34,366 nt of DNA. It comes from a virus. The translations under genes were made by a program, and so were the position numbers. Numbering within the stretch: the first letter of the stretch is position 1; every line of letters begins with the position of its first letter. Under the pieces are notes generated by a model, which searched no databases, was not told where the DNA came from, and saw only the letters and a program-made list of their open reading frames with translations. The stretch covers positions 1 to 34,366 of IMG/VR virus record IMGVR_UViG_3300042484_000604. One strand, given 5' to 3'. Shown piece after piece: positions 4,191 through 25,676 of this stretch.

Positions 4191-4199
4191 TGTTATAAT
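4191..4199 (+). promoter_or_regulatory. Extended -10 promoter element before the tail tube gene
   Basis: The sequence reads TGTTATAAT, a perfect extended -10, just after the stop of the tail terminator-like gene. No -35 is seen. Transcription would start near 4206, giving a leader of about 48 bases that carries AGAGGTG at 4241-4247 before the ATG at 4254. This gives the tail tube gene its own message, which would end at the terminator at 4891. Confidence 0.55.
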
Positions 4200-4253
4200 T
4201 AAGGTGAGGAAACAAGCCCTTTTAATCCAAAAGAAAAAAAAGAGGTGAAAAAT

Positions 4254-4874
4254 ATGGCATATACACGTGGTAGCAGCAACAATATTATTGTTGGAGCAGC
4301 AGCCCTCTTCACACATGAAGCAGGCGTACTCACAGACGTAGCACTTCCAGCATACGTAGCAGGAACATCATATAAGACAACTTTGTCAAATGATGCAGAT
4401 TTCCGCAATGTTGGATACACAATGAATGGTTTGGAAATTCAATTCCAGCCAGATTTCGGCGAAGTAGCAGTAGACCAGGTACTTGACGTTGCTAAGTTGT
4501 TCAAGCAAGGCATGCAGGTAAACCTAAATACTACATTCGCAGAATCAACACTAGAGAATCTTCTATTTGCACTAGCAGGTAAGGATGATGATCTATCAAC
4601 AGTATCAGGAAACCCAACACTCAATCTTTCAGCAGGAGACATTGGCGAATGCCCAGTCGAACGTGGTTTGGTTGCAGTTGGTCCAGGTACAGGAGAGTGT
4701 GCAGCATCAGACCAACTCGAAAGAGTTTATGTAGCATACCGTGCTCTTTCAATCGAGAGCGTAACAGTATCTGCAAAGAGAGATGAAGCGACAATGTTCG
4801 AAGTATCATTCCGTCTTCTTCCAAATGATGATGCATCATACGGTAAGATCGTAGATCGCACTATCCCAGCATAA
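4254..4874 (+). CDS. Major tail tube protein
   Basis: 206 residues. ATG 4254 is chosen over the in-frame GTG at 4245 because AGAGGTG (4241-4247) lies 6 bases upstream of the ATG and overlaps the GTG. The protein is predicted beta-rich with one central helix (VAVDQVLDVAKLFKQGMQVN) and ends in strands (ATMFEVSFRLLPNDDASYGKI), typical of the siphovirus tube fold. Hexameric rings of it stack to form the tail tube. The gene lies between its own promoter and a strong terminator and uses more C-ending codons than most of the window, as expected for one of the most abundant virion proteins. Confidence 0.8.
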   Translation: MAYTRGSSNNIIVGAAALFTHEAGVLTDVALPAYVAGTSYKTTLSNDADFRNVGYTMNGLEIQFQPDFGEVAVDQVLDVAKLFKQGMQVNLNTTFAESTLENLLFALAGKDDDLSTVSGNPTLNLSAGDIGECPVERGLVAVGPGTGECAASDQLERVYVAYRALSIESVTVSAKRDEATMFEVSFRLLPNDDASYGKIVDRTIPA

Positions 4875-4890
4875 TACAACTAAATATACG

Positions 4891-4925
4891 AGAGGCTCAA
4901 TCCTTCGGGGTTGGGCCTTTCTATT
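4891..4925 (+). terminator. Strong rho-independent terminator with UUCG tetraloop
   Basis: An 11-bp stem (4893-4903 with 4908-4918, two G-U wobbles) closes a TTCG tetraloop between C and G, the very stable cUUCGg form. It is followed by TTTCTATTT. It lies 18 bases after the tail tube stop codon and is the best terminator in the window. It should insulate tail tube mRNA from the chaperone genes. Confidence 0.9.
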
Positions 4926-4934
4926 TGGTATACT
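4926..4934 (+). promoter_or_regulatory. Extended -10 element giving a leaderless chaperone mRNA
   Basis: The sequence TGGTATACT lies directly after the terminator. The -10 hexamer ends 6 bases before the ATG at 4941, so transcription would begin at or next to the start codon. There is no ribosome binding site upstream of that ATG. Another TATAAT overlaps the start codon at 4937-4942. Confidence 0.5.
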
Positions 4935-4940
4935 TATATA

Positions 4941-5645
4941 ATGCCTACAGAAATATACAAAACCTCAATAATAGAACTGTTTGATGGCACAGAACTGTAC
5001 ATAACTCCATTAAAGATAAAATACTTAAAGTTGTTTTTAGATGAATTTGAGAATGTAAAGACATCAAAAAATGATGAGGAAGCGATGCACTATCTTTCTA
5101 AGTGTGCAACAATTACAATGAGGCAATACTGTCCAAAAATAAAAACTCAAGAACAACTAGAAGATAATATTGATATGCCAACAATTTATAAGTTATTAGA
5201 TTTTTCAGCAGGTATAAAAATAAATGAAAAATCTGAAGAGCCAGTAAAGTCTCAGGCAGCAGAAAGCGGATCTACATGGGATGAGTTAGATTTAGCAGAG
5301 TTGGAATCGGAAGTATTTTTGCTGGGGATTTGGAAAGACTATGACGAGTTAGAGTCATCTATGTCAATGCCAGAGATTATGGCAACACTTAAGGTAAAAA
5401 GAGATCTTGACTATTCTCAAAAAAAGTTTCTTGCTGCTATGCAAGGTGTTGACTTAGACAAGGCAAGCAATAAGAGCAATGCTTGGGAAGATATGAAAGC
5501 CAGGGTATTTAGTGGTGGTCAGGCATCAGACTCTAAAGACATTGTTGCACTTCAAGGAATTAATGCACAAAAAGCAGGGTTTGGAATTGGCATGGGCTTA
5601 GAGTATGAAAGATTAGACGAATCTGTGCCGTCCAGCGTGGTATAA
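4941..5645 (+). CDS. Tail assembly chaperone, long form (G-T type fused in frame)
   Basis: 234 residues from ATG 4941. An in-frame TTG at 4911 lies inside the terminator and is rejected. Residues 1 to about 90 form a G-type domain (FDGTELYITPLKIKYL, DMPTIYKLLDFSAGI) that is clearly paralogous to the next gene. After an acidic linker comes a T-type domain: ESEVFLLGIWKDYDELESS, then KRDLDYSQKKFLAAMQGVDLD, a signature of tail chaperone extensions in many siphoviruses. In lambda-like phages the T part is reached by a programmed -1 frameshift; here G and T are in one frame. The protein should bind the tape measure and recruit tube subunits. Its weak -10 (TATACT) and leaderless start may hold it at a low level. 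Confidence 0.75.
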   Translation: MPTEIYKTSIIELFDGTELYITPLKIKYLKLFLDEFENVKTSKNDEEAMHYLSKCATITMRQYCPKIKTQEQLEDNIDMPTIYKLLDFSAGIKINEKSEEPVKSQAAESGSTWDELDLAELESEVFLLGIWKDYDELESSMSMPEIMATLKVKRDLDYSQKKFLAAMQGVDLDKASNKSNAWEDMKARVFSGGQASDSKDIVALQGINAQKAGFGIGMGLEYERLDESVPSSVV

Positions 5646-5646
5646 T
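5638..5646 (+). promoter_or_regulatory. Extended -10 element overlapping the long chaperone stop codon
   Basis: The sequence reads TGGTATAAT, and the stop codon TAA of the preceding gene lies inside the hexamer. No -35 is visible. Transcription would start near 5653, leaving a leader of about 22 bases with AAGGAGGA at 5662-5669 before the ATG at 5675. Confidence 0.55.
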
Positions 5647-5674
5647 TAACTGTTAACCTATAAGGAGGAAGACT

Positions 5675-6016
5675 ATGGCTGACAAGCCTTCAACAACTAA
5701 AAATACAAACGGCAAGACAATTACACTAATTGACGGTACAGAAATTATAGCAAGACCACTCAAGTTATCACTTCTTAGACCATTTATGGCTAAGTTTTCA
5801 CTATTGGCAGATGCCTCAGAAGATAACGAAAAGTCAATGGACATTCTCCTTGACTGTGCACAAATAGCACTAAAGCAATTCAAGCCAGAGTTGGCAGAAA
5901 ACAAGGAGGAACTAGAAGAACTTCTAGACCTTCCAACTGTTTATCAAATCATCGATGTAGCATCAGGACTTCAAAACTCTGAGGCGTCAGCATTGATGAG
6001 TTCGCTAAACAAATAA
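5675..6016 (+). CDS. Tail assembly chaperone, short form (G type only)
   Basis: 113 residues with a strong ribosome site (AAGGAGGA). It aligns over nearly its whole length with the first 90 residues of the preceding gene. Shared landmarks are the DGTE and PLK motifs at the start, a central Cys-Ala-x-Ile segment, and an LPTVYQIIDVASG segment matching MPTIYKLLDFSAG. It has no T extension, and only 24 bases separate it from the tape measure gene, so no frameshifted extension can be encoded downstream. With a consensus promoter and ribosome site it probably supplies the abundant short chaperone, while the preceding gene supplies the rarer long form. That division of labour is an inference from the known G to GT ratio in lambda. 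Confidence 0.75.
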   Translation: MADKPSTTKNTNGKTITLIDGTEIIARPLKLSLLRPFMAKFSLLADASEDNEKSMDILLDCAQIALKQFKPELAENKEELEELLDLPTVYQIIDVASGLQNSEASALMSSLNK

Positions 6017-6040: not shown

Positions 6041-9000
6041 TTGGCAGATGTAAACTCTAATATAAATATTAATTTTGATACAACTGCCGCTCTTGCACAA
6101 CTACGTTCTTTACAGGCAGGCCTCAGCAGGTTTCATCAATCACTTGCTGAGGGTAACCTGGCTGCAGCAAATGCTCAAAAAGGTTTAAACGCTCAACTGC
6201 TTCAGTCTGTTGGGGCTACAGGAAAATTTTCTGCAAGTCAAGTTAAAGTTGCAGGAAGCACACTGGCCTTTACTTCTGCATTAGAAAAAAATAAACTATC
6301 ACTTCGTGAGTACTACAGATACACAATGGCAGCAGCAACTGCCAATACTCGTGTTATGGGAAAAGCCTTTGCACAAGAAAGAGAAATTATAAATCGTGCT
6401 CGCAGAGATAGAGTAAAAGCCTTACAAGCACAATACATCCAGATGAACAAATCTAATGCTGGATTTATGGATGCAATCAGGATTATGCCTAAAAGCCTAC
6501 AAATGGCTAGTGGAAAGTTCACTGAACTTGGAACAAGAATTCAGTATGCTGCTCAAAGACAGCAGTTTCTTAATCAACTCTTAAAGCAGGGATCTACACA
6601 ACTTCTTAACTTCGGTAAGAATACTCAGTGGGCAGGTCGTCAGTTAATGGTTGGTCTTACAATGCCACTTGCCCTGTTTGGTTCAGCAGCAGCAAAATCA
6701 TTTAGAGAATTAGAAACAGCAATTGTAAAGTTTAAGCGTGTTTATGGAAATGCTTTTACTAATGAATCAGAAGTAAATCTAGCAGTAGAAAATATCAGGG
6801 CCTTAGCAACTGAATATACTAAGTATGGTGTATCTGTAACTAAGACAATGGAAATGGCAGGCACCGCAGCAGCAGCAGGTTTTTCAGGTAGAGCATTAAC
6901 AGCACAAGTTGAAACAGCAACAAAGTTAGCAGTTCTTGGACAGATAGAGCAGCAGCAAGCACTTGAAACTACTATTTCTTTGCAAAATGCTTTTGGTTTG
7001 TCTAGTGAAGAACTTGCAAAGAAAATTGACTTTCTTAACGCAGTAGAAAACCAAACTGTTCTATCTATTGAAGACTTAACTATTGCAATTCCAAAAGCAG
7101 CACCAATTATAAAACAACTTGGCGGAAGTGTTGAAGACCTAGCCTTTTTCCTTACAGCAATGAAGGAAGGCGGAATTAACGCATCAGAAGGTGCGAACGC
7201 ATTAAAGTCTGGTCTTGCCTCTATGATCAACCCATCAAAGAAAGCAGCAGCATTTCTTGGAGACCTTGGAATAAATATAAAAGGTATTGTTGAGGCAAAT
7301 GCTGGAAATTTACAAAATACTATTATTGGTTTTGCACAGGCACTCGATACACTTGACCCACTTAATCGTGCAAGAGCAATTGAACAAATGTTTGGTAAGT
7401 TTCAATTTTCTCGTTTATCAACACTATTTCAAAATGTAACAAAAGATAGTTCACAAGCATCACGTGCTCTTAGTTTAGCAGGATCCTCAGTAGAAGAATT
7501 AGCAATCTTATCTGAGCGAGAAATGGGAAAAATTGAAGATTCTGTTGGAGTTAAGTTTCAGGCAGCAATAGAGCAGTTTAAACAAGACATCATGCCTTTA
7601 GGAAAAATATTCCTTGAAGCCTTAACTCCAGTAGTTAAGTTTTTTGGTGGACTATTTGAAAAGTTTAATGGTCTTGGAGATAGTACAAAGAAGGTTATTG
7701 CTGTAGTCGTTGCAGCAGTTGCAGGTCTTGGACCAATTGTATTGATGACATTTGGTCTTTTAATGAACGCAGTTGCAAATGCAATTAAGTTATTCTCAAT
7801 GCTTCGTGGTGGTATTGCCAAGTTAAACGGACAAACAAACATAATGGGTGCAGGATTTAACTACATGACACAAGAGCAGATTGAAAATGCTGCATCTTCT
7901 AACCAACTTCATCAAACACATTCAAGATTAGTAGAAGTGTTTAATGTTGAAAAAACATCTGTAAACGCTCTTGCTGCATCATACAACTCATTAAGTACTC
8001 AAATGAGAAGCATGGCATCGCAAAATCCAGCATTATTTGCTGGAGGAAGGGGAGGTGCAACTAGAGCAGTAAGCAAGTTACCTCCAACAAGAAAGTATAA
8101 GGATGGAATCCTTAGTGTTCCTGGACCAAAGGGTGCAGGAGATGTAGTACCAGCAATGCTTTCTCCAGGAGAAGCAGTCATCCCTACAGACACAACAAAT
8201 AAATATAGAGGTCTTATTAGTGCAATGTTTAAAGACAAGGTTCCAGGATTTATGGCTGGAAGACTTCCTGGTGGACCTGGAAGAGGAATCCCACTATCTC
8301 CAGGACCAAAAGCAGTAAGAGATGCACAGCAAGCAAGAAATAGGAAAAGAGATGATGCTCGTCAAGGATATAGCGAACCACATCCAGAAAAGAAAACTGG
8401 TCCAACCTTTATTGGTATGCCAAAGAGTTCTGCAGAAGCATCACAGTCTAGACAGATTTTAGATAAAATATCAAATCAAGTAAAACTTGGACAATTTGGA
8501 TCTGTTCCACCAACAAATTTTGGAACAATGCTTCAATCGTTTTCTGGAAGAAGTTTCCCTGCACGTGGTGTTGGCGGGGTATATAGAAAGCCTAATGGAC
8601 AAATTGTAGTAGTAAAACCAACAATAGATGAGAAGACTGCCTTAGCAGAAGTTCGTGCTACTCAAATTGCTAGAGAAGTTCATGGCCTTGTATCTCCAAA
8701 ACAAACTATCAAAACAATGATGGACCCAACAGATCCAACAGGACAAAGAAAGTTTATTGTTATTGAGTCTCCGTATGATCCTAGAATTGCTGCTATGAGT
8801 GGTAAGTTCTCAAAGTCTGAAATGGTTAAGCAGTTGGTTGCATCAACACTAAGAGGAGATAAGGATTTACAAAGACCAAACTTGTCTGGCAATGTTTTAG
8901 CAGATGTTGGAACTGCTGGAGTATTTGATAGAGCATCTGGGTTTAGAGATTTTGCTAAAGTTATGCCAAGTATGGAGCAACAGGCAGTTGTAAATCTTCT

Positions 9001-12000
9001 TGGAGTTAAGGGTGGAGCAAAGAAGTTCTTTGCACAGGAAACATCTGGAGTAGCAGCATCAATGTCTCCAAGAGATTATGATGCAGCGATAAAAACAGAA
9101 ATTGCTAAGTCAGTTCCAAGACTAGAAAAACTTCTTAAAACTTGGAACTTAAACCCAGAAGAAAAAATTGTTTATGGAAATATGCTCAAGAGGCTTAAAG
9201 ATGGAGCAAAGACAGATTGGGCAGCGCTTCACCCTATTCATGCTCGTGCAGGAGAAGGAGTTACTAAGTTAGAATTAGGAGACTTTGAAAAATTTAAAAA
9301 TGTTCCAGAGTCAAAGGCACAAATTGAAAAACTTGTAACAGGTTTATCAAACGATGCAGCAGGACAATTGGAAAGATTGCCCAAGGAGCAAAGAGACAGG
9401 GTACTTGCTGCACTAGGAAAAGAAAAACCAGCACCAACACATATGAGCCAAGGCAAACTAATGAAGTTTGTAAAAGAAAACATGATTTACAGAGACGGCC
9501 TATTTTATGATAAAAAATCTTTAGATGCTGGAAGAGACACTGCTGGAAAAACTTATGACCAAGTTATGAAAAAAGTTTTTTACCAGATGGGATTAGTAGA
9601 AAAAGATGGTGCATTTGTAAGCGATAAAAAAATAAATATGCCTTCAAGATTAAGAGATGCTATGAGTCCCGAAGGTAAAGCGGGAGGAGGCTGGAGAACA
9701 AACGTACCAAAGAGTTCATTACTTTGGAAAGCACTGGATGCAGAAGAACAAAATTTTAGAGCAGCAAATATGGTTGCAGGTAAAAATGATCCACTAAAGA
9801 ATGTAAGAGAAAAACTTAAGTCTTTGGGATATACTGAAAAACAAATTGCCACAGCCCTAAGATCTGAGTTATCACATGTAGAAAAAACTGGTGAGTCTGG
9901 AAGAGGTCCTGCAAAGTATTCAAAGGGATCAGCAATGTTCGACCTAAGATTATTAAACAACTACATGAATACAAAAAATAGACCTCAAAATATTTTAGAC
10001 TGGAATGCAAAAAATGGAAATCCTCTTGGATTAACACCAACACAAATTAAAGAGTTTGAAAAAGCAGCAAATTATATGAAGCCTGGGGCACACCCAACAA
10101 CATTAGACGATATAAAATTAGTTCAAAAATCTGCACAACTTGATGTTCTAGCAGATGAATATTTAAAACAACAAAAAGTAAAGCCAAAGGGCTTTCCAAA
10201 ACTAGGACAGGTTAATGCTTCCAAGGGTCTTCTAGCGCTTCTTGATGATAGAATTGGAACAGGATACTATGACTCTTCAAAGCCAGTTTTTAATCTATCA
10301 AGTGGTGTAGATCAAAGTCAAAAAGTTTTGGTAGATCCAAATAATGAATTCAAGGTTGACACTAAAACTGGCAAAGTAACAAAATTAACAAACGCCAACA
10401 CAGGAGCAAAGCCTGCTGGAGCAGTTGCCGATAGTGGAAGTTCAAGAGATAGAAGAACTACGACAGAAACACGAACACAAAGAGTTGCAACAAGAAGCCA
10501 ACTTGCAAGTTTCCGTAGAGGATTTGGAAAGATTCCTGGATTCTCTATGCCTGGAAAAATCAAGGGAGATCCAGGATTAAAAAATCCTACAGTAAAACAG
10601 GGACAACTAGCATTAGATTTACGTAGCAAAGGATTTAGTCAGGCTGAAATCGATAGAACTCTTAGAAGGTTTGCAGAAAACGAAATAAAAATTAAAGAGT
10701 CTCAAGTTAAGGCTGCTGAAAAAGATGCAAGAACTGAAGCAGCAAGACAAAAAGAAAAGGCAGCAATACAAAAACGACAAACTGTAGATGCAAGAAAGAG
10801 ATATGTAGAAGAACAGCGCCGTGCAGAACTTAATCGTCAGCAAGCATTGCACTATAATGCTGCAGTAAAAGAAAACCAAAGAAGAGACTTAAAGAATCAA
10901 AAGCAAACTGAAAAAGCAAATATTAAAAATCAAAGAATAGCACGTCAAGAAAAGATTGGTAGATTCTCTGGTGGAGCGTCAGCGGCTCTTGGAACTGCAG
11001 GCATGGGTCTTATGATGGCTGGAAATGAAAAGGGCGGAATGGCAATGATGGGCGCATCTGCTGTAGCAGGAATGGCCCCAATGCTTATGAATCCAGTAGG
11101 AGCCGTTGCTGCAGGACTTCTTGTAGCAGCAGGAGCAATTGTTGCATTTAATATGGCACTGAGCAAGGCCAAAAAAGAAGGTATTGCTTTAGGTAATGCC
11201 ATGTCTATGACTAAGGGCAAACTAATTGAATTATCAAAAATTACTAACTCTGTTTCAGCATCTGAATCAGCAGACAGAAAAAGAGCAGATCTACTTGTTG
11301 GAGCAAATGAAAAACAGCGCAAAGTTGGACAAACAATACTTGAGTCAGAATTTGGAAAATCATTACTTGCAGATATAGAAACACAAGTAAAGGCAGGATT
11401 CTCAAGTGCTGATATTGGAAAAAACATGGGAGTTCAACTATCTGCAGCAATGCTTAGCGGTGTCATAGACTCAGATCAAGCAAGAAGTTTGGCTATGGCA
11501 ATAGGTAATGAGTTAAAAGACTATCCTCTATCTGCAAATATTGCTGCGGAAATAATTCAAATTACTGGTCCTAACGGAGAAAATATTAAAAAGGATCCAC
11601 TCAAGGTTGCCTTAGACATTGACAAAAAAACATTCGAAACTTCTAACAAGATGATTGACTATGCATCAAAACAAAGTTTTTCTTATTTCAATGCATTAAG
11701 TTCTTATGGTGGAATTGCATCGACTGCTAATCAGTTGGGCCCAGTACTTGGCGGTGTACTTAGTAGAGTTAAGATATTTGACCGCAATGAGAACACATCA
11801 ACACTCATTGGCTCAGGTGGAACCATGGCATCTTCTGAATCAGCAAGAAGGGGAGAAAAGGGATTAAGCCACCGAATTCAGCAAGCAATAAACCCAGCAA
11901 TCTATCAAGACTGGTATGATCCCAAAAAGAGTGGACTAGATAAGGCACTGTCTGTCCTTACATTTGGTACAACATCAACATACTTCCAGGTAAGAGATGC

Positions 12001-15000
12001 AAAGGCAGCATCACTTAAAATTCAAACTGCTGGTGCACAGTTAATGGTTCAAGAATTAGCAAACAATCAGCAATTAATAGATTCATTAAACAAACAGTAT
12101 GACATTAGACTAAAAACTGCTAAAACTGAAAAAGAAAGAGCAAAAATTCAGGAAGAAAGAAGAGCAGCACTTGATGGTGTAAATGCACAAAATAAAAACC
12201 AAATTAATACAATCTTAGCATCTAAAGATAAAATTGGAGAAGATGCTTGGAATGCTGCCATTAAAGGCGCTGTAGATGAGTTATATCCAAAAGGACCACA
12301 AGCAGCACTTAAAGATGCAGCACTAACACAACTTGCTACTATGCCAGATAGTGCATTTAAAACAGAAATGCAGTTGCAGTTTGCAAGTAATCTAATCGAT
12401 CCAATGACTTTGATTGATTTACTTAGTAATGAACCATTCCAAAAAGAATATAATATTTTAGTTGATACTACTTTTAAAGGTGACGCTGCAGGCGCGTCTG
12501 TTTTTTCACAGTTAATGTCAAAGGCTGGACTTGGTACTGATCAAAAAACCAATGTTACAGCAATGATAAATGATACAACAACGTATGACGCTGCTATGAA
12601 AAACGCTACAACTGATGAACAAAGAGCAAAAGCCAGAGGGGATAGACAAGAACAGATAGATAGCATTAAAGAAGCAGTTGCTGCATTGTCTCAAATACAA
12701 GAAACCTATGGTATTAACTTAGATGTTAATGATAATAGTGTGGCAAAAGTTCAAAGAATTGCAGACATGGTAAAGGCATTAGGCGGGAAAAAAGGCGTAA
12801 CAAAGGCTGAATTAAAAATAATGGCAGACCCGAAATTAGGGGGAGATCCAAGATATCAATACATTTTCGATAATTGGGAAGCGCTTGTTGGAGATGGCCT
12901 TACAATGTCAGCAACAATGTTGCTCAATCTTGAAACAATGGTTACAGACGATATGATTCTGCAGGGTTATTTGCAGGCTGCTGGAACTAAAGACGAGATT
13001 CAAACAAATGAATTAATGCAAAAGGGAATGATTCCAAGTTGGGCTCAGGACAGAACTGCTAAAGAAAAGGCAGCCGCTTACTTTGCTGCAAATCCAGCCA
13101 AGTTTAAAGAAATCTTTGGTGTTGAGTATGAGGGTCAAGACCCTCCTGTAAAGGTGGCTGACCCACTTGAGTTCTTACAGCCATTGGCTATGCAATTGAA
13201 GCAGGTAAGAGACAATGCATTTAATGCTCTTACTCCAGTAAAGTCATTGCTTGAAGCATTTACAAACAAGCAAACACAAAAAGATGCTTTTAATTTATTT
13301 GATGGTATTCAAAATAGACTTTTAAAGATGGGCGTTGGAAAAGACTTTAGAGAAGCAATTGATTCTATGTCTGCAGAAGACTTTGCAAAGGTAGCAGCAT
13401 TAACAGGTGACAGAGCCCTCTTTACTTTTGAAAAAGGTAAGGCAAGATCAAAGGATACAATTAAGGGACTAACTGATACTGGCAAGGCTGTTGATCAAGG
13501 GTACCGTGAAAGAAACCTTGGTACCTTTAATCTTGCTAATGAAGAGACAATAAAAGATATACAAGATCAATCCAAGGCATACAACATTTTAATTGGAAAC
13601 GGATTAAGCGCAGCCCAGGCTTTAGAAGTTGTTGCTGATAAGGGTCAGGCTGCAGCCCTTGCTAGTGGAGCAATAAGTTCCTCTGATCCAGACTGGCAAA
13701 CTTATATTACAAATATTAGACTAGCAAACACCGCACTTGAGCGCCAAGCAACATTGAATAATGCAATTAAGGCAAATGAAGAATTTAGGTTGTATGCAGA
13801 TATGCCACTTCTTGTTTCTCAAATGAAAGAACTTGGATATAGCGTTAATCAAATTGATGCTGTTCTTGGAGATCCAAAATTAGCAAAGATGTTAGTAGAA
13901 AGTTTAAAGAATGGTGAATCAGCAGCCAAGGCTATTGCAGACTATATTGATAATATTGAAGCAAGAAAAATAATTGATATACAAGTTGCACTTAATAAAG
14001 GAGATCTAAAGGAAGCATCTCAAAATGGAAGACAACTTGTCGATGACCTGTTTGCAGCCCAAGAAGGTCTAATACTTTTTGGTGCTGATGCCAAGTTAAT
14101 TAGGGCAAATGAAAAAGAAATTGCAGATAAACAACTTCAGATCGCTGGGTTCCAACAAACAATTGAAAAACTTAATGATCAAATAGAAGATGGTCAAAGA
14201 AAAATTGAAGAGTCCTATACAAGACCAATTGAAGATTTAAATGAAGAAATTAATGATTTAAGTCGTGACCTAGAAACGAACCCACTCTTTGGTGATCGTG
14301 CTATTAAAAAGATTCAAGATGAAAGTAGTGTTCTTTCAAATGACTTAGAGATTATAAATCATGCAGCAGAGGAAGTAAATAAGAGATATGATGAGCAAGC
14401 AGATGCTCTTTCAGAGATTCAAAAGATTAATGAAAATATTGTAGAGCAACAAAGCAATCAACTTGATTTAGCAGATGCTCTTTCAAAGGGAGATATTTCT
14501 GCAGCAGCGCAGGCGGTGCAGGCAATGCGAGAAGCAAGTGCATCACAGTTTGAATCAGATCAATCAGATGCTTTAGAGCAAGCAAGACAAAATGAATTAA
14601 TGGGTCTTGTAGGTCCAAAGAGTGGATTAACAGCAGAACAAATAAATGAAAAACAATATTTAAATGCACAAAAAATTTATGATATGGAAAACGATCCAAC
14701 CAGACTTTCTATATTGGAAATGATTATTGGTAAGCAAGATCAGATATATAGTTACGAAGAAAGTCGTGAGTTGGCACTTCGTGGTATTAGAAAACTTGAA
14801 GATGCAATCTCTAAGATTGAAGAAGAATCTATTGAGCCACTTCAAGAAAGAATAGATGCACTTGTTTATCAGAATCAAGTAATACAAGCAAGAATTGATA
14901 AAGAGATAGCAGAACTCACAGTTCTTGGAAATACAAAAATAGCATGGGCGGCAATTAACGCACAATTAGATGCAGCAGGTGCTGCCTTTGCTGCTCTCAA

Positions 15001-18000
15001 TGGTTCAAAAGACCTTGCAGGCTTGCTTGCATCAGCACGAGAACTAGATCAAACCTGGGCAAATATAGTTAAAACATTATCTTTGTATGCGGGTGCAGCA
15101 CCAACTACTGGACCACTTCAAGATGCAATAAATGCAATTGGGGGTCCTGGAGCAAATGCATATGTACCACCAGTAAGTACTGCAGAAGATATTGCAGCAG
15201 CAGCAGAGTTTGATAGGGTGGTTGCAGAATTAGATAAGGCACAAGCCTATAGTGACTGGATTGCAGAAAATGGAAGATCTGAGGAACAGTTTAAATTAGC
15301 AGCAGCAAGACTTGCTGCAGCACAGGCTGCATATGATGCAACAATTCCTAAGTATGATGCAAACAATGTAGGCGGTGGCGGAGGCCTTAATTCTTTTAGA
15401 TTCATGGCTACTGGTGGAATGGTTAGACCAAAATATTTTAAAACAGGCGGAATAAACAAAGGAACAGACACAGTTCCTGCAATGCTTACACCTGGAGAGT
15501 TTGTAGTTAAAAGGTCTGCAGTAAAGAAGTACGGATCAAAATTCTTTAAAAACCTTAATGATAAAAAGTATTCAAAAAATAATAAAGCAATGACTCCAAA
15601 AGAAGTACTTGACATAGTTAGAAACCTTGGTTCTTCAATATCAGGTAAACCAAAGTCTGCCTACGATGCTAACAACCAGCCTACTGGAAGTCCAACTGGA
15701 AGATACTGGGGAGAATTAGAAAGACTATACGAAGGCTCTCCAATAGGGTTTGATAAAAATGGAAAGCCTATATTTAACACTACAGGAAAAGATCCATGGG
15801 GCGGAACAGAGATTCCAGGACTTCCATTTAGTGGCAAGGTAGCAAATTTCTCTGACTACTGGCATCAATTAGCAGAGCAGCCAAAGGCATCTAGCAGCCC
15901 TGGAATGGGTATTGATAAGACTCCAGACCGTTATGCAGGTTCTGGTGCTTCTATGGGCGGTATTGGTGGTGGTGTATACCGTGTTGGTGGCCTACAACTA
16001 TTCTCTAAAGGTGGAATGGTTCCACATTACTTAGGAATGTCATCAATGGGGAAGGGCAGTGGCAAAACATCTCAAAATAGTTTACTTCCAGGCGTACGTG
16101 AAAACAGATACCAGTATGGTCCTGGCAAAACCAGAGGTGGATTTGAACCAGGATTTAGAAAAGAGCAATTTGAACAAGTTGCCAACTTCTTTGGATTGCC
16201 ATCAATTGCTAAGACTGGCTACGATTTGGCAAAGTATGGCGGTATACCAGGAATGATTCAGGCTAAAATTGATGGTAAAGAAATGAGATCCAATGCTGGG
16301 GATAACTTAACGGCTGGACTATCTGTTATTCCTATTCCTTTGATGAAATTATTAAAGCCATTAGGAAGATTTGCCAGCAAGATAGTTCCTCAAGGTGTAA
16401 AAAACTTTATTTCAGATCCTGTTAAAGGCTTGGGTATTGACATGTTTAGTAAACTATCATCCAAGTTAAATCCATCAGCATCGACACCAACTGGAAGTTT
16501 AGTAGAGCAAGGCCTAACCCCTCCAACAAACCCACTACCCAAAGATCCAAACCTTTGGGATGATAATTATTTTTCAGAACCTTACTTCCCAACCAAGACT
16601 GAAAAAGTTCTTTCTTCTCTTGCAAATACAGGAAAAGTAGGATTAGAACTATCTAGTTTAATTTATAAAACAAAGTATGGGATAAAAGATTTTGTTGGTG
16701 GTGCCAAGAAACCAATAGAGAGCGCATGGAATTATCTTGACCCAAATAAACGATCAACATATCCACCTATAAAAGCATTTGGATCAGCACTTACAGCACC
16801 ACTTGCAAAACCTGTTGCTAAACTAGCAAAAGAGTTTAACCCTTACGCAATTAGTAACTTAGAGACAAACTATAAGGATCTGTCATATATACAAAGATCT
16901 ATGATTCCAAAAGGTGGAAGTAGATCTGAAGCCTCATACAGTACCATGTTTGAAAATATTACATCTGATATTGCAACCCCAATTAAAGCCAAGTTAACTG
17001 GTTATAAAGATTCAGTAAAATCAAAAGTAAACGAGAAATTTGGAGATACAGGTTTTCTATGGAACTTGAAACGTTCAGCAGAATCTGGCCTCACACCTGA
17101 AAGAAAAGCATACTATCAGAGGCAGGCATTTATAGAATCAGTTCCAGGACCACTAGGTGCATTACTACAAATGAAGTTGGGTGTTCATAGATCAGTGAAA
17201 GAAATTATGGATTTCCCATCTCCCTTAGAAAGAGAATTAACGGCAAGAGTTGATCCATATTCAAGACCTATGGCAGCCCACGGTCCAGGACTTTATAGTT
17301 CAACTAGCGCCGAAACATCAAAGATTTATAGGAATTTTGGGACTTTTGAATATGGCGTATCACTAACACCAAAGGCAATTCTTAAAGTATTAACAGGCAA
17401 AGGCATTCTGTCTACAAGGCAAGAGAAAAAGTTTGCACTAAAGTACCAGAAAAAAACTGGCTTGAAGTATACACCAACAATTGATAGTATGAATTCTGAC
17501 ATAACAGATCCATACATGCAGGCAATTCTTAAGGCTGGCTATATTGGGTACAGACCTGGAACTGAGTTTACAAACTGGGGAATAGGAAACATCCCTGGAA
17601 TGCATCTAAAACCTATAGCAACTCCAGACACCTTTATAAGAAAGGTTGGTGATGAATATGTTACATTGCCAGGATCAGCAATTACTAATCCTGCTAAACC
17701 AACCTTAAACTCAGTCTCAGAAATTGGAACTAGTAAAGCATCTGTTGCAACACTTGCTGGAACTGCTATTGGGGCTGCTGGATTAACTGGTCTTTCTTTA
17801 TATAATGCAATAAATGCTAATGCAGGCAACCCTACTTTAGAAGATATTGTTTCTAACAAAGTTAATAAAAATAGTGGTGGACTGGGAGGAAGGTTTGCAA
17901 TGCAGGCACTTTCATCAGGAGGGCTGGCAAGAGGAACTGACATCGTACCAGCAATGCTAACACCAGGAGAATTTGTAATGAGTAAGTATGCTGTTGAGTC

Positions 18001-18178
18001 TCACGGGGCAGACACTATGAAGGCTATAAATAATGGCTCAACTGTAGGGGACTCAGTGTATAATTATAGTATCAATGTAAATGTTAAATCTGATTCAAAC
18101 CCAGATGAAATTGCAAGAGCAGTAATGACTCAAATAAAGAGCGTTGATTCACAAAAAATTAGAGGAGTTAGAATTTAA
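6041..18178 (+). CDS. Giant tape measure protein (TP901 family) with possible enzymatic domains
   Basis: 4,045 residues. The start is TTG 6041, 9 bases after AGAGGTG; no in-frame ATG is nearby. Residues about 225-450 carry the TP901-type tape measure core (TMEMAGTAAAAGFSG, LSIEDLTIAIPKAAPIIKQLG, EGGINASEGANALKSGLASM). Hydrophobic segments lie near 547-588 and 1650-1705. Charged coiled-coil stretches lie near 1535-1640 and 2670-2970. The motif VPAML(T/S)PGE occurs at Asp701, Asp3143 and Asp3967. A kinase-like stretch (about 835-1075) and an ART-like stretch (about 3705-3865) are described separately. The C-terminus (YSINVNVKSDSNPDEIARAV) is typical of tape measures. The protein sets tail length and enters the cell with DNA in this class. 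At about 1.5 angstrom per residue it would span up to 600 nm, unless cargo domains are not part of the ruler. It ends in TAATG, coupled to the Dit-like gene. Confidence 0.92.
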   Translation: MADVNSNININFDTTAALAQLRSLQAGLSRFHQSLAEGNLAAANAQKGLNAQLLQSVGATGKFSASQVKVAGSTLAFTSALEKNKLSLREYYRYTMAAATANTRVMGKAFAQEREIINRARRDRVKALQAQYIQMNKSNAGFMDAIRIMPKSLQMASGKFTELGTRIQYAAQRQQFLNQLLKQGSTQLLNFGKNTQWAGRQLMVGLTMPLALFGSAAAKSFRELETAIVKFKRVYGNAFTNESEVNLAVENIRALATEYTKYGVSVTKTMEMAGTAAAAGFSGRALTAQVETATKLAVLGQIEQQQALETTISLQNAFGLSSEELAKKIDFLNAVENQTVLSIEDLTIAIPKAAPIIKQLGGSVEDLAFFLTAMKEGGINASEGANALKSGLASMINPSKKAAAFLGDLGINIKGIVEANAGNLQNTIIGFAQALDTLDPLNRARAIEQMFGKFQFSRLSTLFQNVTKDSSQASRALSLAGSSVEELAILSEREMGKIEDSVGVKFQAAIEQFKQDIMPLGKIFLEALTPVVKFFGGLFEKFNGLGDSTKKVIAVVVAAVAGLGPIVLMTFGLLMNAVANAIKLFSMLRGGIAKLNGQTNIMGAGFNYMTQEQIENAASSNQLHQTHSRLVEVFNVEKTSVNALAASYNSLSTQMRSMASQNPALFAGGRGGATRAVSKLPPTRKYKDGILSVPGPKGAGDVVPAMLSPGEAVIPTDTTNKYRGLISAMFKDKVPGFMAGRLPGGPGRGIPLSPGPKAVRDAQQARNRKRDDARQGYSEPHPEKKTGPTFIGMPKSSAEASQSRQILDKISNQVKLGQFGSVPPTNFGTMLQSFSGRSFPARGVGGVYRKPNGQIVVVKPTIDEKTALAEVRATQIAREVHGLVSPKQTIKTMMDPTDPTGQRKFIVIESPYDPRIAAMSGKFSKSEMVKQLVASTLRGDKDLQRPNLSGNVLADVGTAGVFDRASGFRDFAKVMPSMEQQAVVNLLGVKGGAKKFFAQETSGVAASMSPRDYDAAIKTEIAKSVPRLEKLLKTWNLNPEEKIVYGNMLKRLKDGAKTDWAALHPIHARAGEGVTKLELGDFEKFKNVPESKAQIEKLVTGLSNDAAGQLERLPKEQRDRVLAALGKEKPAPTHMSQGKLMKFVKENMIYRDGLFYDKKSLDAGRDTAGKTYDQVMKKVFYQMGLVEKDGAFVSDKKINMPSRLRDAMSPEGKAGGGWRTNVPKSSLLWKALDAEEQNFRAANMVAGKNDPLKNVREKLKSLGYTEKQIATALRSELSHVEKTGESGRGPAKYSKGSAMFDLRLLNNYMNTKNRPQNILDWNAKNGNPLGLTPTQIKEFEKAANYMKPGAHPTTLDDIKLVQKSAQLDVLADEYLKQQKVKPKGFPKLGQVNASKGLLALLDDRIGTGYYDSSKPVFNLSSGVDQSQKVLVDPNNEFKVDTKTGKVTKLTNANTGAKPAGAVADSGSSRDRRTTTETRTQRVATRSQLASFRRGFGKIPGFSMPGKIKGDPGLKNPTVKQGQLALDLRSKGFSQAEIDRTLRRFAENEIKIKESQVKAAEKDARTEAARQKEKAAIQKRQTVDARKRYVEEQRRAELNRQQALHYNAAVKENQRRDLKNQKQTEKANIKNQRIARQEKIGRFSGGASAALGTAGMGLMMAGNEKGGMAMMGASAVAGMAPMLMNPVGAVAAGLLVAAGAIVAFNMALSKAKKEGIALGNAMSMTKGKLIELSKITNSVSASESADRKRADLLVGANEKQRKVGQTILESEFGKSLLADIETQVKAGFSSADIGKNMGVQLSAAMLSGVIDSDQARSLAMAIGNELKDYPLSANIAAEIIQITGPNGENIKKDPLKVALDIDKKTFETSNKMIDYASKQSFSYFNALSSYGGIASTANQLGPVLGGVLSRVKIFDRNENTSTLIGSGGTMASSESARRGEKGLSHRIQQAINPAIYQDWYDPKKSGLDKALSVLTFGTTSTYFQVRDAKAASLKIQTAGAQLMVQELANNQQLIDSLNKQYDIRLKTAKTEKERAKIQEERRAALDGVNAQNKNQINTILASKDKIGEDAWNAAIKGAVDELYPKGPQAALKDAALTQLATMPDSAFKTEMQLQFASNLIDPMTLIDLLSNEPFQKEYNILVDTTFKGDAAGASVFSQLMSKAGLGTDQKTNVTAMINDTTTYDAAMKNATTDEQRAKARGDRQEQIDSIKEAVAALSQIQETYGINLDVNDNSVAKVQRIADMVKALGGKKGVTKAELKIMADPKLGGDPRYQYIFDNWEALVGDGLTMSATMLLNLETMVTDDMILQGYLQAAGTKDEIQTNELMQKGMIPSWAQDRTAKEKAAAYFAANPAKFKEIFGVEYEGQDPPVKVADPLEFLQPLAMQLKQVRDNAFNALTPVKSLLEAFTNKQTQKDAFNLFDGIQNRLLKMGVGKDFREAIDSMSAEDFAKVAALTGDRALFTFEKGKARSKDTIKGLTDTGKAVDQGYRERNLGTFNLANEETIKDIQDQSKAYNILIGNGLSAAQALEVVADKGQAAALASGAISSSDPDWQTYITNIRLANTALERQATLNNAIKANEEFRLYADMPLLVSQMKELGYSVNQIDAVLGDPKLAKMLVESLKNGESAAKAIADYIDNIEARKIIDIQVALNKGDLKEASQNGRQLVDDLFAAQEGLILFGADAKLIRANEKEIADKQLQIAGFQQTIEKLNDQIEDGQRKIEESYTRPIEDLNEEINDLSRDLETNPLFGDRAIKKIQDESSVLSNDLEIINHAAEEVNKRYDEQADALSEIQKINENIVEQQSNQLDLADALSKGDISAAAQAVQAMREASASQFESDQSDALEQARQNELMGLVGPKSGLTAEQINEKQYLNAQKIYDMENDPTRLSILEMIIGKQDQIYSYEESRELALRGIRKLEDAISKIEEESIEPLQERIDALVYQNQVIQARIDKEIAELTVLGNTKIAWAAINAQLDAAGAAFAALNGSKDLAGLLASARELDQTWANIVKTLSLYAGAAPTTGPLQDAINAIGGPGANAYVPPVSTAEDIAAAAEFDRVVAELDKAQAYSDWIAENGRSEEQFKLAAARLAAAQAAYDATIPKYDANNVGGGGGLNSFRFMATGGMVRPKYFKTGGINKGTDTVPAMLTPGEFVVKRSAVKKYGSKFFKNLNDKKYSKNNKAMTPKEVLDIVRNLGSSISGKPKSAYDANNQPTGSPTGRYWGELERLYEGSPIGFDKNGKPIFNTTGKDPWGGTEIPGLPFSGKVANFSDYWHQLAEQPKASSSPGMGIDKTPDRYAGSGASMGGIGGGVYRVGGLQLFSKGGMVPHYLGMSSMGKGSGKTSQNSLLPGVRENRYQYGPGKTRGGFEPGFRKEQFEQVANFFGLPSIAKTGYDLAKYGGIPGMIQAKIDGKEMRSNAGDNLTAGLSVIPIPLMKLLKPLGRFASKIVPQGVKNFISDPVKGLGIDMFSKLSSKLNPSASTPTGSLVEQGLTPPTNPLPKDPNLWDDNYFSEPYFPTKTEKVLSSLANTGKVGLELSSLIYKTKYGIKDFVGGAKKPIESAWNYLDPNKRSTYPPIKAFGSALTAPLAKPVAKLAKEFNPYAISNLETNYKDLSYIQRSMIPKGGSRSEASYSTMFENITSDIATPIKAKLTGYKDSVKSKVNEKFGDTGFLWNLKRSAESGLTPERKAYYQRQAFIESVPGPLGALLQMKLGVHRSVKEIMDFPSPLERELTARVDPYSRPMAAHGPGLYSSTSAETSKIYRNFGTFEYGVSLTPKAILKVLTGKGILSTRQEKKFALKYQKKTGLKYTPTIDSMNSDITDPYMQAILKAGYIGYRPGTEFTNWGIGNIPGMHLKPIATPDTFIRKVGDEYVTLPGSAITNPAKPTLNSVSEIGTSKASVATLAGTAIGAAGLTGLSLYNAINANAGNPTLEDIVSNKVNKNSGGLGGRFAMQALSSGGLARGTDIVPAMLTPGEFVMSKYAVESHGADTMKAINNGSTVGDSVYNYSINVNVKSDSNPDEIARAVMTQIKSVDSQKIRGVRI
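8540..9260 (+). other. Possible kinase/phosphotransferase-like domain inside the tape measure
   Basis: Residues about 835-1075 of the tape measure show a kinase-like order of elements. There is a glycine-rich turn (Gly843-Tyr848), a strand ending in Lys859 (IVVVKP) and a helix with Glu870 (ALAEVRATQ). A loop RGDKDLQRPNLSGN follows with Asp940, Asp942 and Asn951, and then a strand with Asp963 (AGVFDRASG) in the place of a metal-binding Asp. The order resembles HipA or PI3/4-kinase-like folds. It follows directly after the first PAML(T/S)PGE motif. This is a reading by eye; no fold search was possible. Confidence 0.35.
17150..17620 (+). other. Possible ADP-ribosyltransferase-like domain near the tape measure C-terminus
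   Basis: Residues about 3705-3860 carry GVHRS with Arg3717, then HGPGLYSSTSAETSKIY (His3747 to Tyr3763), a strand TFEYGVSLTPKAILKV, and later a GYIGYRPGTEF segment with Glu3842. The order resembles ART-type toxins, with an Arg or His in the first strand, a G-x-G-(L/I)-Y-x-(S/T) strand-helix, and a late G-Y-x-G segment. It lies between the second and third PAMLTPGEF motifs. Assignment to the ART superfamily is tentative. Confidence 0.4.
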
Positions 18179-25211: not shown

Positions 25212-25220
25212 TGGTATAAT
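25212..25220 (+). promoter_or_regulatory. Extended -10 element giving a leaderless tail-knob mRNA
   Basis: TGGTATAAT begins one base after the preceding TAA stop. The hexamer ends 9 bases before ATG 25230, so transcription probably starts 2-3 bases before or at the start codon. There is no ribosome binding site in the 18-base gap. This is one of the clearest leaderless candidates in the window. Confidence 0.6.
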
Positions 25221-25229
25221 TGATACACT

Positions 25230-25676
25230 ATGGCAATAATTCCTTTACCTGAGCGTGGTCAACCACTAGATGTAGCATATATTTCTAAGTTGGCACAAGC
25301 AGTCAACGATCTGTCAAAAGAAACACAGTCATCAAGATATAACTATGTGTCTATTGCTACAGAAGATGCTGGACCACAAAATAAAAAAATAACAGATGTT
25401 AGAGTTGTAACTAAAATTGAAAAAGTTACAACTACTAGTCAAAATGTTACCGCTAATGATGAACTTAAGTTTGCTTCAACCTTTGCTGGTGAATTTAAGT
25501 TTCCTCCAGTAGTAACTGCTACAGTAGTAAATGTAGGAGGAACACCTGCTGGAGCAGATGTCTCTATAGTTTTAAATAAACCAACAACCTCTGGAGTAGA
25601 TGGGGTTGTAAAATTTAATCGTACTGGTTTGGTATCAACAAGTGTTAATCTTATTATAGTTGGCGTACCTAATTAA
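25230..25676 (+). CDS. Minor tail / fibre-tip knob-like protein
   Basis: 148 residues. The N-terminal part (residues 1-40) is a helix (DVAYISKLAQAVNDLSKE) that may trimerise or join another tail protein. The C-terminal roughly 85 residues are beta-rich with the pattern FASTFAGEFKFPPVVTATVVN and end in VNLIIVGVPN, typical of the small knob domains at phage fibre tips. Such a helix plus knob layout suits a receptor-binding spike tip. The start has no ribosome site and lies just after an extended -10, so the mRNA is predicted to be leaderless. A receptor-binding role is an inference. Confidence 0.55.
   Translation: MAIIPLPERGQPLDVAYISKLAQAVNDLSKETQSSRYNYVSIATEDAGPQNKKITDVRVVTKIEKVTTTSQNVTANDELKFASTFAGEFKFPPVVTATVVNVGGTPAGADVSIVLNKPTTSGVDGVVKFNRTGLVSTSVNLIIVGVPN

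Follow-up and report, generated by a model that had tools for sequence, protein, structure and literature searches.

Paralogous long and short chaperone genes appear to replace a programmed frameshift in the tail locus of a clade of phages related to Stanwilliamsviridae

Organisation and identity of the locus

The window analysed here is the whole of a 34 kb virus record (34,366 nucleotides, 37% G+C), in which two open reading frames (ORFs), termed here GT and G2, sit between the major tail protein and tape measure genes. Both ORFs are present where the original prediction placed them, at 4941–5645 (234 aa from the ATG at 4941) and 5675–6016 (113 aa). The following features were assigned:

4254–4874, plus strand: major tail protein (Ig-domain) gene, matching PHROG 2175 'protein with Ig domain' (E=8e-32)
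4890–4921, plus strand: intrinsic-terminator-like hairpin of 14 pairs at the boundary between the major tail protein gene and GT
4926–4934, plus strand: predicted extended -10 promoter of GT, TGGTATACT, from comparison across representatives
4941–5645, plus strand: GT, encoding the long tail assembly chaperone (234 aa), in which G and T share a frame, matching PHROG 10504 and PHROG 10474
4971–5222, plus strand: G domain of GT, residues ~11–94, from BLASTP to G2 and AlphaFold elements
5275–5612, plus strand: T domain of GT, residues ~112–224, homologous to the -1-frame ORF of Stanwilliamsviridae by tblastn and alignment
5638–5646, plus strand: predicted extended -10 promoter of G2, TGGTATAAT, overlapping the GT stop codon, from comparison
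5662–5669, plus strand: Shine-Dalgarno sequence of G2, AAGGAGGA, from its match to AGGAGG
5675–6016, plus strand: G2, short G-only tail assembly chaperone paralogue, 113 aa, from PHROG 10504, BLASTP, and HMM matches
6041–18178, plus strand: tape measure protein gene, 4045 aa, from its ORF and the same position as the annotated Stanwilliamsviridae tape measure gene

The major tail protein ORF as listed starts at GTG 4245, and the position of the gene matches that of the annotated major tail protein in Streptomyces phages (synteny). The closest named relatives are the Streptomyces phages of Stanwilliamsviridae, with Rhodococcus phage NiceHouse more distant, and the gene order of the window (major tail protein, tail assembly chaperone, tape measure) is that of these named relatives. 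Searches with tblastn returned 34–43% identity to genes annotated as tail assembly chaperone, with the T domain showing 40–48% identity to the T frame of Circinus, Braelyn, and Coruscant. As compared at the chaperone locus and by synteny on this 34 kb fragment, the locus is probably the tail assembly chaperone of an actinobacterial phage related to Stanwilliamsviridae, and a chaperone role in this phage is suggested. The actinophage marker WhiB (PMC10202952) is present in 13 of 13 long records examined, making Actinobacteria the likely hosts of the clade. No provirus or host copy was found, with a scan of 84,980 prokaryote species genomes returning zero relatives; a Pfam search gave no significant family, and PDB sequence and fold searches gave no usable match. 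Within the tape measure protein (window 6041–18178), two embedded enzyme-like stretches, one kinase-like and one ADP-ribosyltransferase-like, were picked out by eye and are candidates only.

Paralogy of GT and G2

The G domain of GT aligns with G2 in a two-sequence BLASTP comparison (GT residues 11–98 with G2 residues 16–105; 31% identity, 63% positives, E=6e-14), with the motifs DGTE, PLK, and PT[IV]Yxx[LI]D common to both. Both proteins match PHROG 10504 (1.3e-18 and 3e-17). The C-terminal half of GT falls in another family, PHROG 10474 (3.5e-16), a result that would be expected if the phages from which that family was built encode T in a reading frame of its own. The order of elements is the same in the AlphaFold models of both G domains, two strands followed by helices (in GT, strands 9–12 and 18–21, and helices 26–40, 45–63, 70–76, and 79–90). 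The GT model has a mean pLDDT of 72; viral predicted structures matched by it include proteins named tail assembly chaperone, and its match to N15 GT is of weak significance. Chance similarity between GT and G2 was considered and rejected. Both genes are under purifying selection relative to near relatives, with dN/dS values of 0.06–0.09 for GT and 0.14–0.21 for G2.

No long alternative frame is open at the end of G2, the stop codon of which (6014–6016) lies 24 nt from the tape measure start at 6041, leaving no room for a frameshift product after G2. The same 24 nt gap, together with in-frame stops, likewise rules out that ribosomes shift frame at the end of G2 and read on into the tape measure gene. 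Short and long isoforms with a common N-terminal domain are thus encoded here as separate paralogous genes. The original prediction had claimed that the G domain of the first gene aligns with the second gene, that T is fused in frame in the first and missing from the second, and that there is no space for a frameshift product beyond the second; the BLASTP alignment and shared motifs, the ORFs and PHROG matches, and the 24 nt gap, respectively, bear out all three.

Fused and split loci among relatives

Three IMG/VR scans, with loci sorted by G and T HMMs on stop-to-stop ORFs, recovered at least 253 loci, at least 205 of which carry a fused GT followed by G2 and at least 42 of which are split with one G (at least 136 and at least 36 distinct sequences, respectively). 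The split set comprises the Streptomyces phages of Stanwilliamsviridae and environmental contigs, and the other six loci are five contig-end truncations and NiceHouse, the G of which is too distant for the model. By HMM classification, no fused locus without G2 and no split locus with G2 was found among the complete loci listed, and GT is a fused ORF in all complete fused-clade loci among those listed. Exactly two G matches were found in each of nine long fused records (behind L039, L047, L067, L077, L055, L190, L200, L156, and L135), and one in every split record searched. The second gene, which might have proved unrelated to G in relatives, is a G homologue in all of the at least 136 distinct complete fused loci, and across these loci the comparison shows strict co-occurrence, G2 always accompanying the fusion. 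Sequencing error as the source of a false fusion was ruled out by the same frame recurring in at least 136 distinct sequences. In three split loci (L181, L182, and L185) the match of the G protein to the G model is broken into two parts by an insertion inside G.

In every named relative inspected, the frame of T is -1 with respect to that of G, with the slippery heptamers C_CCA_AAT (Loccivirinae), C_CCG_GAA (Boydwoodruffvirinae), and G_GGA_AAA (NiceHouse) all at the expected position, and in Yaboi and NiceHouse the chaperone is annotated as a joined gene. In the environmental split loci the heptamer is CCCAAAC, CCCAAAT, CCCGGAA, or GGGAAAC, in the -1 register throughout, such that a slippery heptamer occurs at the same position in every split locus inspected. 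Those nearest the fused clade (L186, L199, and L217) carry GGGAAAC instead of CCCAAA[TC]. In GT of the window, by contrast with programmed -1 frameshift chaperones, T has no separate frame and is read in frame with G. The slippery site of the split relatives is replaced at the G/T junction of fused genes by an in-frame linker, conserved as GIKINEKSEEPVKxQA..SGSTW in the window's part of the clade. No shared slippery site was found in the fused genes, with a maximum of 8 of 53 representatives sharing an in-frame XXXYYYZ heptamer at any codon column. Alignment of fused and split loci therefore shows the slippery site to have been lost in the fused clade; a functional site of this kind would have spoken against the original prediction.

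Start signals of GT and G2

In the window, the last base of the GT promoter is 6 nt from the GT ATG, a gap conserved in 46 of 52 fused representatives, and TGn precedes GT in 51 of 52. No Shine-Dalgarno sequence was found before GT, the match to AGGAGG being at most 4/6 across the 52 representatives and at most 3/6 in 51 of them. The GT promoter pattern is present in at least 114 of at least 121 distinct GT upstream regions. In the nine long fused records TGNTATAMT-N6-RTG has 88 matches, compared with 3 for the reversed pattern, and one copy falls exactly at the GT start in all nine. These counts may indicate that leaderless starts are a general feature of the fused clade. A further copy of the G2 promoter sequence at 25212–25230 of the window ends 9 nt before the ATG of an ORF at 25230, a candidate leaderless or near-leaderless gene. 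A hairpin stem of at least 6 pairs lies between the major tail protein gene and GT in 43 of 52 fused representatives, compared with 4.5% of random windows.

In Actinobacteria, where more than 20% of genes are reported to be leaderless, a TANNNT box ~12 bp upstream of the start codon marks such genes (PMC3160421). As the extended -10 site ends ~6 nt before the start and no Shine-Dalgarno sequence is present, GT is predicted to be leaderless, with transcription starting at or next to the ATG. A leaderless start need not mean weak expression, since in M. tuberculosis leaderless genes do not differ overall in mRNA:protein ratio (PMC3898074).

Before G2, TGnTATAAT is present in 52 of 52 fused representatives, usually ending 24–29 nt upstream of the start, and the match of its Shine-Dalgarno sequence to AGGAGG is at least 5/6 in 50 of 52. 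The start of the split relatives is G2-like, with a promoter mostly 22–33 nt upstream and a Shine-Dalgarno sequence, and therefore the short-form gene appears to have kept the ancestral type of start and the fused gene to have a new one. The GT and G2 promoters, extended -10 sites without a clear -35, were detected by comparison; a sigma-70 two-hexamer scan flagged neither. No terminator was found between GT and G2 on this strand, and G2 may therefore also be read from the GT transcript. Comparison across representatives shows the signals before GT and G2 to be conserved clade-wide, and these conserved, distinct signals before each gene lend support to the proposal that two promoters and start signals are at work. 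Elsewhere in the window, at 1057–1083 and 4191–4254, further extended -10 sites with Shine-Dalgarno sequences precede structural genes, including that of the major tail protein, and may belong to a set of late promoters.

Phylogeny of the T and G domains

In the T tree rooted on NiceHouse, the fused genes form a clade (95/93) nested in the frameshifting lineages, with the split loci L199 and L217 nearest to it (87/88), and in a larger tree a single change suffices for the fused form. The trees show a single origin of the fusion within frameshifting lineages, a placement that favours the original prediction that duplication replaced recoding. In the G tree, the G domains of the fused genes (G1) form one clade (100/99) and G2 nearly one, with the very long branch L186, the placement of which is unsure, falling into G2. 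In the best topology, G1 and G2 are not sisters, and G2 lies near the split G of L199 and L217.

Discussion

The locus suggests that an ancestral -1 frameshift was lost in this clade, with GT made from one gene and G from a paralogous gene, and with the ratio of the two set by two promoters and modes of initiation (probability roughly 0.86). The GT gene would encode the long form directly, G and T sharing a frame, and the G2 gene would supply the short form. By analogy with phage lambda, G would coat the tape measure protein, and the scarcer GT would link the tape measure to the major tail protein. The G:GT ratio would then be set by two promoters and two initiation modes instead of by slip frequency. 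GT would be made from its own transcript starting at or next to the start codon, with the terminator hairpin as an insulator and no Shine-Dalgarno sequence, and G2 from its own TGnTATAAT promoter and strong Shine-Dalgarno sequence, with additional translation from the GT transcript. More G2 than GT would be expected, since translation of G2 may draw on the GT transcript as well as on that from its own promoter, and GT would be read mainly from the leaderless transcript. That the clade replaced frameshifting once, by duplication and frame fusion, with a leaderless transcript for scarce GT and a Shine-Dalgarno start for abundant G, is a fairly probable extension of this reading.

Two alternatives bear on whether GT and G2 form such a pair at all. 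Frameshifting may persist in the fused gene near the G/T junction, making extra G, with G2 a specialised extra chaperone. The window's GT does contain in-frame A-rich heptamers at 5066 (AAAAAAT) and 5420 (AAAAAAG), and its alternative frames close quickly; however, the latter heptamer (A_AAA_AAG) lies inside T and occurs in 4 of 53 representatives, no heptamer is common to more than 8 of the 53, the junction carries the linker in place of the split relatives' site, and G2 alone would supply G, making this alternative very improbable. Slips in fused GT at unusual sequences, or by transcriptional slippage, are possible. Alternatively, G2 may no longer form a G/GT pair with GT and may instead serve another function, for example as a chaperone specific to one tape-measure segment or as a regulator, as might be suggested by the divergence of G1 and G2 to 31–46% identity. 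This too we consider improbable: the presence of G2 coincides exactly with the loss of the split frame, its gene is immediately followed by that of the tape measure protein, purifying selection acts on it, the secondary structure of G is kept, and in trees it falls near the single-copy split G.

A third alternative concerns only the origin of G2, and is compatible with the two-gene mechanism favoured above: G2 may have come from a related phage by recombination, at the time of the frame fusion or later, instead of arising by tandem duplication. The grouping of G2 near the split G of L199 and L217, away from the G1 of its own genome, is consistent with such an event. However, an AU test does not reject trees in which G1 and G2 are forced together (p-AU 0.33), and so a single tandem duplication is plausible; furthermore, the branch leading to the fused genes' G1 is long, which can shift the position of G1 in the tree, and G1 and G2 occur together at one locus in every genome. 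Acquisition by recombination is therefore doubtful, though credible.

The two-gene reading can be set against several known systems. In the Stanwilliamsviridae phages Yaboi, Circinus, and Coruscant, the G and T domains are homologous to those of the window and the gene order is the same; however, these phages have a single G followed by a -1-frame T, with CCCAAAT or CCCGGAA as the slippery site, whereas in the window G and T are read in one frame, a second G gene is present, and no slippery site is shared among the fused genes. In lambda, G is present in excess over GT (~30:1) and coats the tape measure protein, which GT connects to the tail tube protein (PMC5009743). Both lambda and the window place a short and a long chaperone between the tail tube and tape measure genes, with the ~30:1 ratio produced by a -1 slip in lambda and two genes present in the window. 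T4-like phages have one short chaperone gene and one fused long gene (Vladimirov et al. 2022, as reported in PMC10885494), and, on that secondary account, separate short and fused short-plus-long genes replace frameshifting there as in the window. The likeness is one of arrangement, and the T4-like phages are an apparently unrelated myovirus lineage; a marginal structural match of the GT model (E 1.4) to a T4-like baseplate hub assembly protein gives a faint hint of homology. GT resembles actinobacterial leaderless genes in its -10 box ~10–12 bp upstream of the start and in having no Shine-Dalgarno sequence (PMC3160421, PMC3898074), but differs from such genes generally in that, of the pair, only the long-form gene carries the leaderless signal, and in the conservation of that signal throughout a phage clade.

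As it has been reported for T4-like phages, the two-gene principle is not new. The apparent novelty lies in the lineage itself, in sister lineages that keep the frameshift and can be compared with it directly, and in the division between leaderless and Shine-Dalgarno starts, a division not found described for T4-like phages in the literature read. No description of the chaperone locus of this clade was found in the open-licence papers searched.

Tail chaperone frameshifting has been called widely conserved among long-tailed phages (PMC5009743). The locus described here would be a clear instance in nature of frameshifting giving way to gene duplication, in a large group of uncultured actinobacterial viruses, and a phage case in which leaderless and Shine-Dalgarno initiation are predicted to divide two forms of one protein. 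Annotation rules that expect a slippery site will misread the fused GT/G2 locus. A large lineage without the frameshift, alongside near relatives with it, also makes it possible to ask whether selection acts to keep the G:GT ratio fixed or to keep the two products coupled. If this reading is true, the old and new solutions would be directly comparable, as the sister lineages still slip.
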